Below, piece after piece: positions 26,671 to 58,646 of a DNA stretch of 59,881 nucleotides. The notes beneath the pieces were generated by a model. The model saw nothing but the letters and a program-made list of their open reading frames with translations, made no database searches and was not told the DNA's origin. The first letter of the stretch is position 1; the number at the start of each line of letters is the position of its first letter. This stretch comes from Pelagibacteraceae bacterium (GTDB lineage: Bacteria; Pseudomonadota; Alphaproteobacteria; Pelagibacterales; Pelagibacteraceae). The stretch spans positions 1-59,881 of the forward strand of contig VTPO01000009.1 of assembly GCA_008638205.1 (NCBI GenBank). Reading direction: 5' to 3'. The position numbers and the translations under genes are program-made.

Positions 26671-26777
26671 TATCCTTCAATATCAAAAGCATGAACATAA
26701 GCACCAATTTATTGGCCAAGCTATAAATAAAGCAAAAAAATTCATAAAAATAGAGCTATACTATGCTTCTTTTGGCT

Positions 26778-26805
26778 TTGACTTAGGTTTTAAGATCAAT
26801 ATAGT
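26778..26805 (+). promoter_or_regulatory. Likely sigma-70-type promoter of the symporter operon
   Basis: TTGACT (26778-26783) and TATAGT (26800-26805) are separated by 16 bases and lie about 32 bases before the DUF4212 start codon, on its strand. The rest of 26671-26777 is AT-rich with no gene seen. This is the clearest promoter-like pair in the window, but it is unverified. Confidence 0.5.
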
Positions 26806-26837
26806 TTATCAAAAATAATAATAATAGGGAGAAAACA

Positions 26838-27104
26838 ATGGCATCAAAAAATCATGAGGCACATTGGAGTAAAACTTCTGGACTAATGAAAATTACATTA
26901 GCTTTATGGTTTTTCTTCGGATATGTGATTTTTATGTTTGGAAATGACATAAATAGTATGAGTTTTCTTGGTTATCCTTTAGCGTATTATATGACGGCAC
27001 AAGGTTCTCTTGCGGCTTTCGTAATAATACTTTTCTGGTCAACTGGGAAACAACAGAAAATCGACGAAGAGCATGGCGTGAGCGATGCAGGGAGGGATGA
27101 TTAA
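26838..27104 (+). CDS. DUF4212 sodium/substrate symporter small subunit
   Basis: The 88-residue protein has two membrane helices: LWFFFGYVIFMFG and the YYMTAQGSLAAFVIILFW region. The pattern HWSKTSGLMKITLALWFFFG is typical of DUF4212 partners of VC_2705-type symporters. GGGAGA precedes the ATG. Its stop codon (TAATG) overlaps the start of the large subunit, as expected for a complex made from one message. Confidence 0.92.
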   Translation: MASKNHEAHWSKTSGLMKITLALWFFFGYVIFMFGNDINSMSFLGYPLAYYMTAQGSLAAFVIILFWSTGKQQKIDEEHGVSDAGRDD

Positions 27105-35539: not shown

Positions 35540-36808
35540 TTAAGACTTATTCATAGAGTCAAAAAATTCAGCATTATTTTTTGTCTCTCTTAGTTTTCCA
35601 ATCATAAATTCAACTGCATCCATGGTACCCATCGGGTTGATAATTCTTCTTAGTACATTCATTTTAGAAAGTTCTTCTTTAGATAAAAGCAGCTCTTCTT
35701 TCCTAGTTCCGGACTTAGTAATATCTATTGCGGGATAAATTCTTTTATCAGCAACTTTTCTGTCCATAATTACTTCTGAGTTACCTGTACCTTTGAATTC
35801 TTCAAAAATAACTTCATCCATTCTTGATCCTGTTTCTATTAATGCTGTTGAAATAATAGTCAGTGATCCACCCTCTTCTATGTTTCTTGCAGCACCAAAA
35901 AATCTTTTTGGTCTTTGTAATGCGTTCGCATCCACACCACCGGTTAACACTTTGCCGGAACTTGGGACCACAGCATTATAGGCTCTTCCTAGTCTTGTTA
36001 TAGAATCTAATAAAATAACCACGTCTTTTTTATGCTCTGCAAGTCTTTTTGCTTTTTCAATTACCATCTCAGCCACTTGAACGTGTCTCATTGCTGGTTC
36101 GTCAAAAGTGGAGCTTACGACTTCTCCTTTTACAGATCGCTGCATATCAGTTACTTCCTCTGGTCTTTCGTCAATCAATAAAACAATTAAATAAACCTCT
36201 GGGTGATTGGTTGTAATAGAATGAGCAATGTTTTGTAATACCACTGTTTTTCCAGTTCTAGGAGGCGAAACAATTAGTGATCTTTGTCCTTTTCCTATGG
36301 GTGCAATCAAATCTATAAGTCTAGTTGTGACATCGGCTTTTTTTTCAATTTTAGTACTTTCGATTTCTAATTTTAATTTATCCTGAGGATACAGTGGAGT
36401 TAGATTATCAAAATTAATTTTATTTCTCGTTTTTTCAGGATCTTCAAAGTTAATTTTGTTAACTTGAAGTAATGCAAAATATCGCTCCTGCTCTTTGGGC
36501 GCTCTAATTTCTCCTTCTACCGTGTCTCCTTTTCTCAAACCAAATCGTTTAATTTGACTCGGACTAACATAAATATCATCTGGTCCAGGTAAGTAATTGG
36601 ACTCCATTGCTCTAAGAAAACCAAAACCATCTTGCAAAGTTTCTAAAACCCCGCTGGCTGTAATCTGTTCATTTTTTTCTGCAAGTTTTTTTAGAATTGC
36701 AAATAAAATTTCTTGTTTTCGCATTGTGCTAGGATTTTCAATCTCTAGTTTTTCTGCTTCCAAAATTAAATCAGCTGGCGTTTTATCTTTGAGTTCTTGA
36801 AGGTTCAT
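35540..36808 (-). CDS. rho: Transcription termination factor Rho
   Basis: The 422-residue hexameric RNA helicase has the N-terminal Rho domain ([19 protein letters not shown]), the RNA-binding cold-shock-like domain ([17 protein letters not shown] and [15 protein letters not shown]), the Walker [11 protein letters not shown] near residue 182 and Walker [17 protein letters not shown]. The Q-loop and R-loop regions are intact. Given how few intrinsic terminators are visible in the window, Rho-dependent termination may be the main mode here, which is inference. Confidence 0.98.
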
Positions 36809-36873: not shown

Positions 36874-37308
36874 CTACAGTGGTTTAAAAATAACTAAAAA
36901 AATAATAATAACCATTAAAACAGTAGGAATTTCATTGATTAATCGATAAAAATTTTCAGTCTTAACGTTTTGGTTATTGAGAAACTTTTTTCTACATACG
37001 CCTAAAAATCCATGAAAACCGGACATTGCAATTACCAAGCCTACTTTTAATTGAACCCAAAACTGCATGGCCGCCTCATGTCCCAACATTCCCAACAATC
37101 CAATTCCCAAGATCCAAGAAACAATCATGGCAGGGTTCATAATAAATTTTAGCAATCTATATTCCATTTGGACAAACTTCTCATGTGTCTCGGAACCAAA
37201 AGAAGTTTGACAATGATATACAAAAATTCTTGGTAAATATAAAAGTCCTGCCATCCAAGCAATAATGGAAATGATGTGCAAAGATTTTAATAAAAGGTAA
37301 ATATCCAT
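36874..37308 (-). CDS. hemJ: Protoporphyrinogen oxidase HemJ (UPF0093)
   Basis: The 144-residue membrane protein has four helices with HIISIIAWMAGLLYLPRIFV at the N-terminus, containing the conserved His, and the block VQLKVGLVIAMSGFHGFLG. This fits HemJ, the oxygen-independent-type protoporphyrinogen IX oxidase of many alphaproteobacteria. It lies 2 bases downstream of hemH, in the hemE-hemH-hemJ string. Confidence 0.9.
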   Translation of the reverse strand: MDIYLLLKSLHIISIIAWMAGLLYLPRIFVYHCQTSFGSETHEKFVQMEYRLLKFIMNPAMIVSWILGIGLLGMLGHEAAMQFWVQLKVGLVIAMSGFHGFLGVCRKKFLNNQNVKTENFYRLINEIPTVLMVIIIFLVIFKPL

Positions 37309-37310
37309 AA

Positions 37311-38327
37311 CTAAACTATATGTTTCTTAATAAGATATTCTAAAAGATTTATATGATCATTGCTATCATTTAAACAGGGCACCATAGAAAATTTTTCTCC
37401 TCCGTGCTCTCTGAATGTCTCTTGCCCTTCCATTTCTATTTCTTCTAATGTTTCGACACAATCAGAGGAAAAGCCGGGGCAAATAATTAAAATATTTTTT
37501 TTTCCTTCTTTTGCCAATCTTTCTAACGTTTTGTCTGTGTAAGGTCGCAACCATGACGCTGGTCCAAATCTAGATTGAAACGAAAGTTCTATAGGAATTT
37601 TGGTGCCAAACTTTTCTATTAAAAGTCTGTTTGTTTTGTGACAATAACATTGATACGGATCTCCCTTGTCAAAATATTTTTGCGGTATTCCATGGTAAGA
37701 AGACAAAATTACATCTGGCATCCAATCAATTGTCTTTAGGTGATTCTCAATGCTATTGGTTAGAGCCCCAATATACAGCGGCTCCGATTCATAGTGTGGA
37801 ATAATTTGTAGGCTTGGTTGCCATCTCATTTTCATTAGATTTCTATAAACCTCATCACATACTGTTGCTGTTGTTGCTGCAGCATACTGCGGATATAGGG
37901 GTAGAATGATTAATTTTTCGCATCCTTGCTCCTTCATTAATTTCATTTTGGAACGTATGCTAGGATTGCCATATCTCATGGCATAATCGACATGAATATT
38001 TTGGTTGGAAGAAAATTTTTGAATAAGCTTTTCCGATTGGCTTCTGGTGTAAAATCTTAGAGGAGATTCGTTGGTTTCTTTCATCCAAATTTTTTTATAT
38101 GCCCTAGCTGTTTTGTGAGGCCTTACGTTAAGGATAATAAAATTTAAAATAACCCACCACAATATTGGGTTTGTTTCAATTACTCTTCTATCCGATAAAA
38201 ATTCTTTTAAGTATTTTCTAATATCCCACCAAGAAGTGCTATCTGGAGTGCCTAAATTAACAATTAAAACACCGGTCTTTCCATATTTTACTTTGGGGTG
38301 ATTAATTTTTTCTAAATTAATGTTCAT
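37311..38327 (-). CDS. hemH: Ferrochelatase
   Basis: The 338-residue enzyme inserts ferrous iron into protoporphyrin IX. Typical parts are GVLIVNLGTPDS at the start, FLSDRRVIE, the catalytic His in SSYHGIPQKYFDKGD, and the acidic segment CVETLEEIEMEGQETF. Its start overlaps the hemE stop by 4 bases. Together with hemE, hemJ, hemC and hemD it gives five of the heme-pathway genes in this window. Confidence 0.97.
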   Translation of the reverse strand: MNINLEKINHPKVKYGKTGVLIVNLGTPDSTSWWDIRKYLKEFLSDRRVIETNPILWWVILNFIILNVRPHKTARAYKKIWMKETNESPLRFYTRSQSEKLIQKFSSNQNIHVDYAMRYGNPSIRSKMKLMKEQGCEKLIILPLYPQYAAATTATVCDEVYRNLMKMRWQPSLQIIPHYESEPLYIGALTNSIENHLKTIDWMPDVILSSYHGIPQKYFDKGDPYQCYCHKTNRLLIEKFGTKIPIELSFQSRFGPASWLRPYTDKTLERLAKEGKKNILIICPGFSSDCVETLEEIEMEGQETFREHGGEKFSMVPCLNDSNDHINLLEYLIKKHIV

Positions 38328-39334
38328 GAAAAAGATCTTACTACCTTAACTAGCTTATGAACAGTCTTGGGGCTGGTCTCTTTTGGCACCCCGTGCCCTA
38401 AATTAAAAATATAGTTTCTGCTTTTAAATTTATTTAAATAAAAATATATTTTTTTTTCCATTAATTTTTTTTTCGAGTTTAAATACTTAGGATCCATTCC
38501 TCCTTGAATAGCAATTTTTTTGTCGATTTTTTTTAATATTAGATTTACATCTATCTTGCTGTCTATACTTAAACCATCTGGCTTAACAATATTACAAAAC
38601 TCAACTACTTTTTTGCCTATGCCTTTCGGAAAGCAAATAATAGGAATGTGCGGGTATTTTCCTTTTATTTTTTTAACAATTCTTTTTGTTGGTTGAAAAC
38701 AAAAAAAATCGAGATGTTTTTTTTCTATTAGGCCGGCCCAGCTATCAAATAATTGAATAGTGTCTGCTCCTGCTTTTATTTGCTGCTCAATGTGAATGTA
38801 TATAAATTTTTCTATTATTTTTAATAATTCTTTTGCTTGTTTTGTGTTCTTTAAAACTTCTTTATAAACTTGATTTTTTTTGGGGGACTTCCTATTCAAA
38901 ACATAAACCAAAATAGTCCACGGGGATCCTGCAAATCCTATAAGAGAGATTCTTTTATTTAATAGCTTTCTGGTTTTTTTAATTGCTAAATAAACATTTT
39001 TTAATTTTTTAATAAATTCTTTATCTTGTGTTTTTTTAAATGTGTTTAATTCAAAATCTCCTAAAACAGGTCCTTCATTTTTTTTAAAGTCTACTGGTTG
39101 TCCTAGTGCATAAGGTATTACTAAAATATCCGAAAATATAATTGCAGCATCTAAATCATATCTTTGAATAGGTTGTAATGTAACTTTTGTTGCGGCGTTT
39201 ACATCTAAACAGAAATTAATGAAATTTTTCTGTTTTTTTCTTACTTCCTGATATTCGGGTAGATAACGACCTGCTTGTCTCATTAACCAAATAGGATTTT
39301 TTTTATTTAACGATTTTTTAAATAGCTCACTCAT
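38324..39334 (-). CDS. hemE: Uroporphyrinogen decarboxylase
   Basis: The 336-residue enzyme decarboxylates uroporphyrinogen III to coproporphyrinogen III. Key residues are in PIWLMRQAGRYLPEYQ, IIFSDILVIPYALGQ, GFAGSPWTILVYV and the C-terminal NLGHGVPKETSPKTV. Its lysine content is unusually high in surface helices, as expected in an AT-rich genome. The start faces the 39335-39598 region, the oriC candidate. Confidence 0.96.
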   Translation of the reverse strand: MSELFKKSLNKKNPIWLMRQAGRYLPEYQEVRKKQKNFINFCLDVNAATKVTLQPIQRYDLDAAIIFSDILVIPYALGQPVDFKKNEGPVLGDFELNTFKKTQDKEFIKKLKNVYLAIKKTRKLLNKRISLIGFAGSPWTILVYVLNRKSPKKNQVYKEVLKNTKQAKELLKIIEKFIYIHIEQQIKAGADTIQLFDSWAGLIEKKHLDFFCFQPTKRIVKKIKGKYPHIPIICFPKGIGKKVVEFCNIVKPDGLSIDSKIDVNLILKKIDKKIAIQGGMDPKYLNSKKKLMEKKIYFYLNKFKSRNYIFNLGHGVPKETSPKTVHKLVKVVRSFS

Positions 39335-39598
39335 ATATAATAATTAATTATAAGTATTAGTATTGGTAGGCACTGTTAGTTTTGTGGTTAAGTTTTAATT
39401 AACATTTTATACATAAGTTTTACAAATTTTAATCTCTTAATCATTGAAAATTTGTATTTTATAAACATAACTAACTTGTAATAAAAAACTTGCAAAATCT
39501 AATACTTTTTCAACAACAAACTATTAAAAAAGGATTAATAAAACAGCCGCACAAGAAGAGTGTATTAATCTAGGTTATATATTATTATTAACAAGCTT
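39335..39598. other. Candidate chromosomal replication origin (oriC)
   Basis: This 264-base AT-rich gene-free region lies between hemE and the DUF299 gene, the same pair that borders Cori in Caulobacter. Transcription diverges on its two sides. One-mismatch versions of the DnaA box (consensus TTATNCACA) occur at 39383-39391 (minus strand TTAACCACA), 39407-39415 (TTATACATA) and 39459-39467 (TTATAAACA). An 8-bp inverted repeat, GATTAATA/TATTAATC, lies at 39533-39570. It must also contain promoters for both flanking genes. No open reading frame is apparent. Confidence 0.6.
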
Positions 39599-40417
39599 AT
39601 GAACAAGGAATATAATTTTTTTTTAGTTTCTGACTCCACGGGAGAAACCTTAGATCGTATTTTCTTAGCTATAAAGGCGCAGTTTAGGAATATAAAATAT
39701 TCCCTTCATCACTTTTCTTTTATCAGAACAGGCGCCCAAACAGCACAGTTAATGAACAAATGCAAGAAGGTAAAAAATCCTATTATTATTTATACATTGG
39801 TTGAACCCTCAACTTCTAATTTTATCATAAATGAAAGCAAAGCTTTAAACATACCTTGCTTTGGCGTTCTTGATCATCTCATTCCTAAATTTGAAAGTTT
39901 GCTTAATGAAAAAGCTACCAGAATGCCAAGTGGCCAACATGAATTGAATAAAGAATATTACAAAAAAATAGAGGCTCTTCAGTACACTCTTGCACATGAC
40001 GACGGACAGCAAATAGAAAGTATTGTTGATGCAGATATAATTTTAATAGGTGTTAGCAGAACCAGCAAAACACCAACATCCATTTATCTTGCAGAAAAAG
40101 GGTTTAAAACAGGAAACATTCCATTAGTTAATCATCAGGAAGTTCCAGATTCTGTTTTTAAATCAAAGGCTTTATTAATAGGGCTTTATATTGACCCAGA
40201 GAGGTTGGTAGATATTCGAAAAACAAGAATGAATATTTTAAATGATAAACAGGAAGATCATGGATATGCAAATATAGAATTTATTAAGGAAGAGGTTGCA
40301 AGATCAAAAAAAATGTTTGCCTCAAAAAAAATACCTACGATTGATGTTACAAGAAAATCAGTGGAAGAAACATCTGCTGCGATTGTAAAAATTTTTGAGA
40401 TTAGACAAAATTCATGA
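39599..40417 (+). CDS. ppsR: Pyruvate-phosphate dikinase / PEP synthase regulatory kinase-phosphorylase (DUF299)
   Basis: The 272-residue bifunctional regulator has the N-terminal FLVSDSTGETLDRIF and the P-loop IGVSRTSKTPTSIYLAEKG near residue 150. Homologues reversibly phosphorylate PPDK or PEP synthase with ADP as donor. Which target it has here cannot be told from the window. It overlaps maf by 4 bases and is the first gene to the right of the oriC candidate. Confidence 0.92.
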   Translation: MNKEYNFFLVSDSTGETLDRIFLAIKAQFRNIKYSLHHFSFIRTGAQTAQLMNKCKKVKNPIIIYTLVEPSTSNFIINESKALNIPCFGVLDHLIPKFESLLNEKATRMPSGQHELNKEYYKKIEALQYTLAHDDGQQIESIVDADIILIGVSRTSKTPTSIYLAEKGFKTGNIPLVNHQEVPDSVFKSKALLIGLYIDPERLVDIRKTRMNILNDKQEDHGYANIEFIKEEVARSKKMFASKKIPTIDVTRKSVEETSAAIVKIFEIRQNS

Positions 40418-58028: not shown

Positions 58029-58646
58029 ATGATAAAAACTGCATATTTAGATAGCATTGTTTCACGTGAAACATCTAAGAAAATAGAGAAATATTGTGAT
58101 TTTCTCATAGAATATAACAAAAATCTTAACTTAATATCTAAATCTACAGAGGATATCATTATGAGTAGGCATATTGAAGACTCTGCTCAATTGCTTAAGT
58201 ATATTAATATTGAGGACAGTAATATTCTTGATATAGGCTCAGGAGCTGGTTTTCCAGGAATAGTAATGTATATTATTAAAAATGATCTTAATATCAAATT
58301 CAAGCTAGATATTGTAGAGAAGAGTTCGAAGAAATGCACTTATCTACAGAAGCTTTGTAAATTTTTAGAAATAGATGTGGCAATACATAATTATGATGTT
58401 AAGAATTTAAAAAAAAAGGATTACACAACTTTAGTAAGCAGGGCATTCAGACCCCTAGATTCTTTTTTAAATATTTTAGATATGAGTAATATTAATTTTA
58501 ACAAAATTTTACTCCTTAAGGGCCAAAGTTATAATATTGAGATTGATGAAGCTAAGAAACATTGGGAAATAAATTGTGATACGCATGAAAGCGTTACAAA
58601 TCCAGGTTCGAAGGTTTTGGTAATAAATAGTGTGAAAAAAAAATAA
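58029..58646 (+). CDS. rsmG: 16S rRNA (guanine527-N7)-methyltransferase RsmG
   Basis: The 205-residue SAM enzyme has the motif LDIGSGAGFPGIVMYI near residue 77, LISKST in the N-terminal helix region, and LVSRAFRPLDSFL. It modifies G527 of 16S rRNA. Codons for VSRET near residue 11 contain the parS site. It lies 5 bases after mnmG and 2 bases before parA. Confidence 0.96.
   Translation: MIKTAYLDSIVSRETSKKIEKYCDFLIEYNKNLNLISKSTEDIIMSRHIEDSAQLLKYINIEDSNILDIGSGAGFPGIVMYIIKNDLNIKFKLDIVEKSSKKCTYLQKLCKFLEIDVAIHNYDVKNLKKKDYTTLVSRAFRPLDSFLNILDMSNINFNKILLLKGQSYNIEIDEAKKHWEINCDTHESVTNPGSKVLVINSVKKK
58058..58073. promoter_or_regulatory. parS centromere-like site inside rsmG
   Basis: TGTTTCACGTGAAACA is a perfect 16-bp palindrome and matches the consensus parS of chromosomal ParB systems. 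It sits within the 5' part of rsmG and encodes part of the VSRET stretch. parA and parB follow within 1.4 kb. Other copies were not searched for exhaustively. Confidence 0.97.

Follow-up and report, generated by a model that had tools for sequence, protein, structure and literature searches.

The chromosomal origin of replication occupies the gap between hemE and the COG1806 gene in Caulobacter crescentus (Cori) and in Rickettsia, and the gap between hemE and a COG1253 gene in Wolbachia and Ehrlichia (PMC1914354). At a finer scale, the basal unwinding system (BUS) of Bacillus subtilis and other oriCs is composed of a DnaA box, a short spacer, trinucleotides with a central A, and AT-rich DNA, the distance from box to trinucleotides showing a peak at 10–13 bp (PMC8287927). 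The locus analysed here, the gap at positions 39335–39598 of a Pelagibacteraceae (SAR11) genome, is very probably the oriC of that genome and orthologous by position to Cori. It resembles the Caulobacter and Rickettsia origins in its divergent flanking genes, its AT-richness and its DnaA boxes. Unlike these origins, it spans only 264 bp, has no IHF consensus in the gap of the window, belongs to a genome in which no CtrA protein was recognized, and lies 63–73 kb from dnaA in closed relatives. Literature searches returned no paper defining a hemE–COG1806 origin in SAR11, although such an origin may stand in databases of predicted origins.

The window, the whole stretch of 59,881 nucleotides analysed, is one complete contig (C9) of a draft genome of 24 unordered contigs (1.12 Mb). 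The named relatives found by protein search were Pelagibacteraceae (SAR11), among them strains of Pelagibacter ubique, HIMB114 and the freshwater LD12/Fonsibacter, and the closest closed relative (G005; 1,284,727 bp) carries a DUF299 protein of 97% identity. The gap and its neighbours, with genes assigned by Pfam, are as follows:

35540–36808, minus strand: rho
36874–37308, minus strand: UPF0093/hemJ, between rho and hemH
37311–38327, minus strand: hemH
38324–39334, minus strand: hemE (URO-D), left flank of the gap
39335–39598, no strand: putative oriC, the 264 bp noncoding gap between the divergent hemE and DUF299 genes
39599–40417, plus strand: DUF299/COG1806 (PF03618; ppsR-like kinase-pyrophosphorylase), right flank of the gap

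Downstream of DUF299 follow maf, aroE, coaE and a gene for a dnaQ-like exonuclease, and then secB on the opposite strand (all Pfam). This order agrees with that given in the initial annotation, from rho, hemH and hemE across the gap to DUF299, maf, aroE, coaE and dnaQ, except that hemJ had been left out. The gap had also been described as AT-rich and free of genes between diverging transcription units; indeed, its AT content is 79% (approximately 67% for the window), ORFs of at least 90 aa are absent, and an Rfam scan of the gap gave no match to an RNA family. The largest stretch between ORFs (of 90 aa or more) near the middle of the window is a different one, 433 bp at 26671–27103 upstream of a sodium:solute symporter gene. 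PF03618 matches were found in 100 of 143 genomes of the class Alphaproteobacteria, and hemE was located upstream of DUF299 on the opposite strand in all 30 alphaproteobacterial loci examined, in support of the proposal that this neighbourhood corresponds to the surroundings of Cori.

To count DnaA boxes, we accepted TTATNCACA-like 9-mers with no more than one mismatch. Four one-mismatch boxes lie wholly inside the gap, whereas dinucleotide shuffling of its sequence predicts 0.67 (P=0.006); the boxes previously reported are thus present, but number four rather than three. Such boxes occur 15.2 times per kb in the gap and 1.19 times per kb elsewhere in the window. Over the whole window, one-mismatch boxes showed no excess (75 versus 86 expected), indicating that the cluster in the gap is local. 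The boxes, including a weak one and a fifth at the edge of the gap, are listed below:

39374–39382, minus strand: weak DnaA box TGTTAGTTT, proximal to the trinucleotide tract, four mismatches
39383–39391, minus strand: DnaA box TTAACCACA, one mismatch
39407–39415, plus strand: DnaA box TTATACATA, one mismatch, kept in five of six genus members
39459–39467, plus strand: DnaA box TTATAAACA, one mismatch, kept in six of six genus members
39585–39593, plus strand: DnaA box TTATTAACA, one mismatch, position kept in six of six genus members (TTATYAACA)
39597–39605, plus strand: DnaA-box-like TTATGAACA, the fifth one-mismatch box, overlapping the DUF299 start codon

Conservation among relatives was found for most of these 9-mers: of the four positions, three are each found in five or all six of the genus members, while the other five members carry no match with one mismatch or fewer at 39383–39391. 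The position of the weak box at 39374–39382 reads TGTGAATAA or TGTGGATAA in many relatives, both of which are exact DnaA boxes on the opposite strand. Across 54 non-redundant Pelagibacterales gaps, exact boxes numbered 20 (expected, 2.0; maximum over 60 shuffles, 7) and boxes with up to one mismatch 204 (expected, 43), every one of the 54 gaps being positive. Exact boxes occur at 1.29 per kb in the gap and at 0.026 per kb in the flanks, an approximately 50-fold difference. Judged by enrichment and conservation, the 9-mers of the gap make strong putative DnaA boxes at the level of sequence.

Alignment of the gaps showed that conservation is highest at the hemE end, where two further features were recognized in the window:

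39335–39354, no strand: AT-rich stretch adjoining hemE, all A/T except one G, candidate DNA unwinding element
39355–39369, plus strand: DnaA-trio-like tract TAT TAG TAT TGG TAG, within the block where the gap is best conserved

The AT-rich stretch, the TAN-type trinucleotides and the DnaA box (39335–39391) together form the strongest conserved feature, and this unit is absent from the initial annotation. Relatives carry an AT-rich stretch at the same place. From the left 95 nt of the 54 non-redundant Pelagibacterales gaps, a motif search with random starts recovered TAgTAtTAGTA.TAggtccTGTtAATaA at 25.3 bits; motifs from the middle and right parts of the same gaps, which share the same phylogeny, reached 11.5 and 13.7 bits, and shuffled sequences 8.3–8.9 bits. 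With a profile built without the genus of the window, the top match in the window was 39353–39389, and with a 41-position profile of the element the gap ranked first within the window. Locating the origin by motif alone was rejected, since these AT-rich genomes give equal or better profile matches elsewhere. Likewise, the tract in the window alone was not accepted as stand-alone evidence (P=0.075–0.13).

Compared with the BUS, the gap shares the AT stretch, the central-A trinucleotides, a spacer of about 13 nt with a weak box, and a better box beyond it. The 13 nt between the tract and the box at 39383–39391, which hold the degenerate box 39374–39382, agree with the published 10–13 bp peak. 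In contrast to the BUS, where TAG (3'-GAT-5') predominates, the trinucleotides here are TAT, TAG and TGG, and the window has a degenerate proximal box. Under the published rule (at least three NAN trinucleotides no more than 16 bp from a DnaA box that has up to two mismatches), the window tract matches in part, one of its five trinucleotides being TGG: the unbroken TAT TAG TAT run ends 19 nt from TTAACCACA, and only the whole tract including TGG comes within 16 nt. Many Pelagibacterales members fit the rule better than the window, and the arrangement is conserved across the order. These observations suggest that the whole SAR11 order shares one putative melting signal, found at a constant place beside the predicted DnaA sites. 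Outside this order, the best gap motif of alphaproteobacteria consists of an AT stretch with TNG triplets after it (27 gaps; 23.2 bits versus 12.4–13.8 bits shuffled). Individual alphaproteobacterial gaps (L226–L250) display this AT stretch with TNG triplets, in several cases with a CCTGTGGATAACGG-like box next, and the combination is a candidate unwinding element for the class.

Since the gap separates two divergent genes, it must hold their promoters, and the conserved block starts approximately 20 nt from the hemE start. Accordingly, we considered whether the gap is merely a divergent promoter or 5' leader region for hemE and DUF299, the block being a promoter or leader of either gene. Loci that have lost a flanking gene bear on this reading. 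In the HIMB114 genus (G014, G026 and G034), hemE is absent from the DUF299 locus, and a divergent hemE of 32–34% identity is located elsewhere in the genome (loci L011–L013, L141–L143 and L145); in the flank of L013, as read from the sequence, a rho-like gene abuts the gap. Nevertheless, the block persists: a profile made without the HIMB114 genus matched L011 and L012 at 17.1 and 16.6 bits, and the distance from the element to DUF299 is 211 nt in both, compared with 210 nt in the window. The opposite loss is seen in a sister family (f2), for which searches by protein (24 genomes) and by family (10 genomes, with positive controls) detected no DUF299. In this family (L132–L140), hemE is followed by a gap of 271–281 bp and then by a maf-like gene in the place of DUF299, and the gap retains a TATATATA-type stretch, (TAG)n or (TTG)n, and TGTG boxes. 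As in Wolbachia and Ehrlichia, the origin gap of f2 would thus still be beside hemE with the other neighbour replaced, the replacement being a CBS-domain gene in the former and maf in the latter. An element kept after the loss of either hemE or DUF299 is tied to neither gene, contrary to what would be expected of a promoter. Together with the approximately 50-fold enrichment of exact DnaA boxes over the flanks and with the skew reversal and parS described below, which indicate the gap, this makes a purely promoter or leader function highly unlikely.

A cumulative GC-skew minimum had been predicted at 39.3–39.6 kb, but the raw skew in the window reaches its minimum at approximately 22 kb; near 39 and 47 kb the minima are local. 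Raw skew was therefore not decisive as an origin locator in the window; over 60 kb it is a weak guide because of the strong effect of gene orientation. We then sampled stretches of closed relatives and determined the gene-strand-corrected GC skew of third codon positions. When five closed relatives were pooled, with dnaA placed to the left, all bins left of the gap were negative and all bins right of it positive: −0.026±0.012 at −35 to 0 kb, +0.029±0.013 at 0 to 35 kb and +0.080±0.010 at 35 to 70 kb. In single genomes, some bins were near zero or of opposite sign. Step fits for each genome placed the origin at −2 kb (G014), +10 kb (G010) and +25 kb (G021) from the gap, so that the reversal lay near the gap (within 25 kb) in three of four single-genome fits. 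The skew of G005 was weak and equivocal, its best fit being 339 kb away and the gap 1.35 log units worse. In G014, of the HIMB114 genus, the fit fell at 140 kb and the gap lies at 141.4 kb, while hemE is now at 718 kb. Apart from the equivocal G005, the skew of the relatives, when pooled, agrees with the gap and does not point elsewhere.

The initial annotation had also noted a parS about 19 kb from the gap, and a perfect site was located 18.5 kb away:

58058–58073, plus strand: perfect parS TGTTTCACGTGAAACA, the sole parS of the genome when up to one mismatch is allowed

This site is inside an ORF (58029–58646) between the presumed mnmG and parA genes, named from gene order. In each of eight SAR11 genomes, exactly one parS (up to one mismatch) was detected, 8–20 kb from the gap. 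The change of skew sign at the gap and the lone parS 8–20 kb away place the gap at the origin. Many bacteria have their origin next to dnaA (dnaA/dnaN), but such a location here, with the hemE gap as a relic, is extremely improbable: dnaA does lie in the same general region, 63–73 kb from the gap in all seven closed relatives, and at least one closed family record (G010) begins at dnaA, but the pooled corrected skew is negative over the 70 kb from dnaA to the gap (−0.020±0.012 and −0.026±0.012), the sign expected for an origin in the gap, and 3.5 kb of the dnaA locus contain just three scattered one-mismatch boxes.

The gap as origin position is strongly supported by comparative evidence, and the candidate origin proposed initially is sustained by synteny across the class, boxes across the order, the skew of relatives, the lone parS and an element that outlives the loss of its flanking genes. 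With regard to its regulation, two CtrA-like sites (TTAA-N7-TTAA) are present in the gap (P=0.018), and such sites showed a mild excess (21 versus 11 by mononucleotide shuffle). The genome encodes five Trans_reg_C proteins, none of which reached the NCBIfam cut-off for CtrA (a model named for Rhodobacterales); their best scores were for PhoB or other regulators. Two proteins, L267 and L269, have a C-terminal OmpR-type DNA-binding domain and an N-terminal part not recognized as a receiver by NCBIfam. Because no CtrA was recognized in the genome, the CtrA-like sites were not taken as a sign of CtrA control; Pelagibacter has been reported to lack ctrA (PMC2877005). We infer that the origin is controlled without CtrA. 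The IHF consensus gave no match in the gap of the window, where a degenerate site would escape, and no enrichment across Pelagibacterales (6 versus 5.6 expected); Caulobacter-like regulation is thereby less well supported, whereas the case for an origin at the Cori position is unaffected. Apparently, this lineage has retained the Cori location and the melting core and has shed the known Caulobacter regulators.

In the proposed working of this origin, DnaA would bind the middle and right boxes of the gap and the tandem pair at 39374–39391, from which a DnaA-ATP filament would grow leftwards onto the tract at 39355–39369. The filament would melt the AT-rich stretch 39335–39354, where the helicase would be loaded and from which two forks would depart in opposite directions. 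Unwinding by a DnaA-trio is likely, judging from its resemblance to the described element and its conservation. We propose only tentatively, leaning slightly to doubt, that the SAR11 origin may work with DnaA and the trinucleotide tract alone, without CtrA or IHF, and that the TNG tract on the hemE side may be a general alphaproteobacterial unwinding element.

SAR11 bacteria, which are difficult to manipulate, rank among the ocean's most abundant cells. A placed origin gives the correct zero point for growth rates from read depth, for strand-bias analysis and for studies of a minimal cell cycle, and the retained element provides a precise candidate melting site. Growth estimates that take position 1 as the origin would be shifted by approximately 70 kb for records starting at dnaA. 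One closed record of the family, G010:C1 (L259 and L092), begins at dnaA, approximately 70 kb from the hemE gap.
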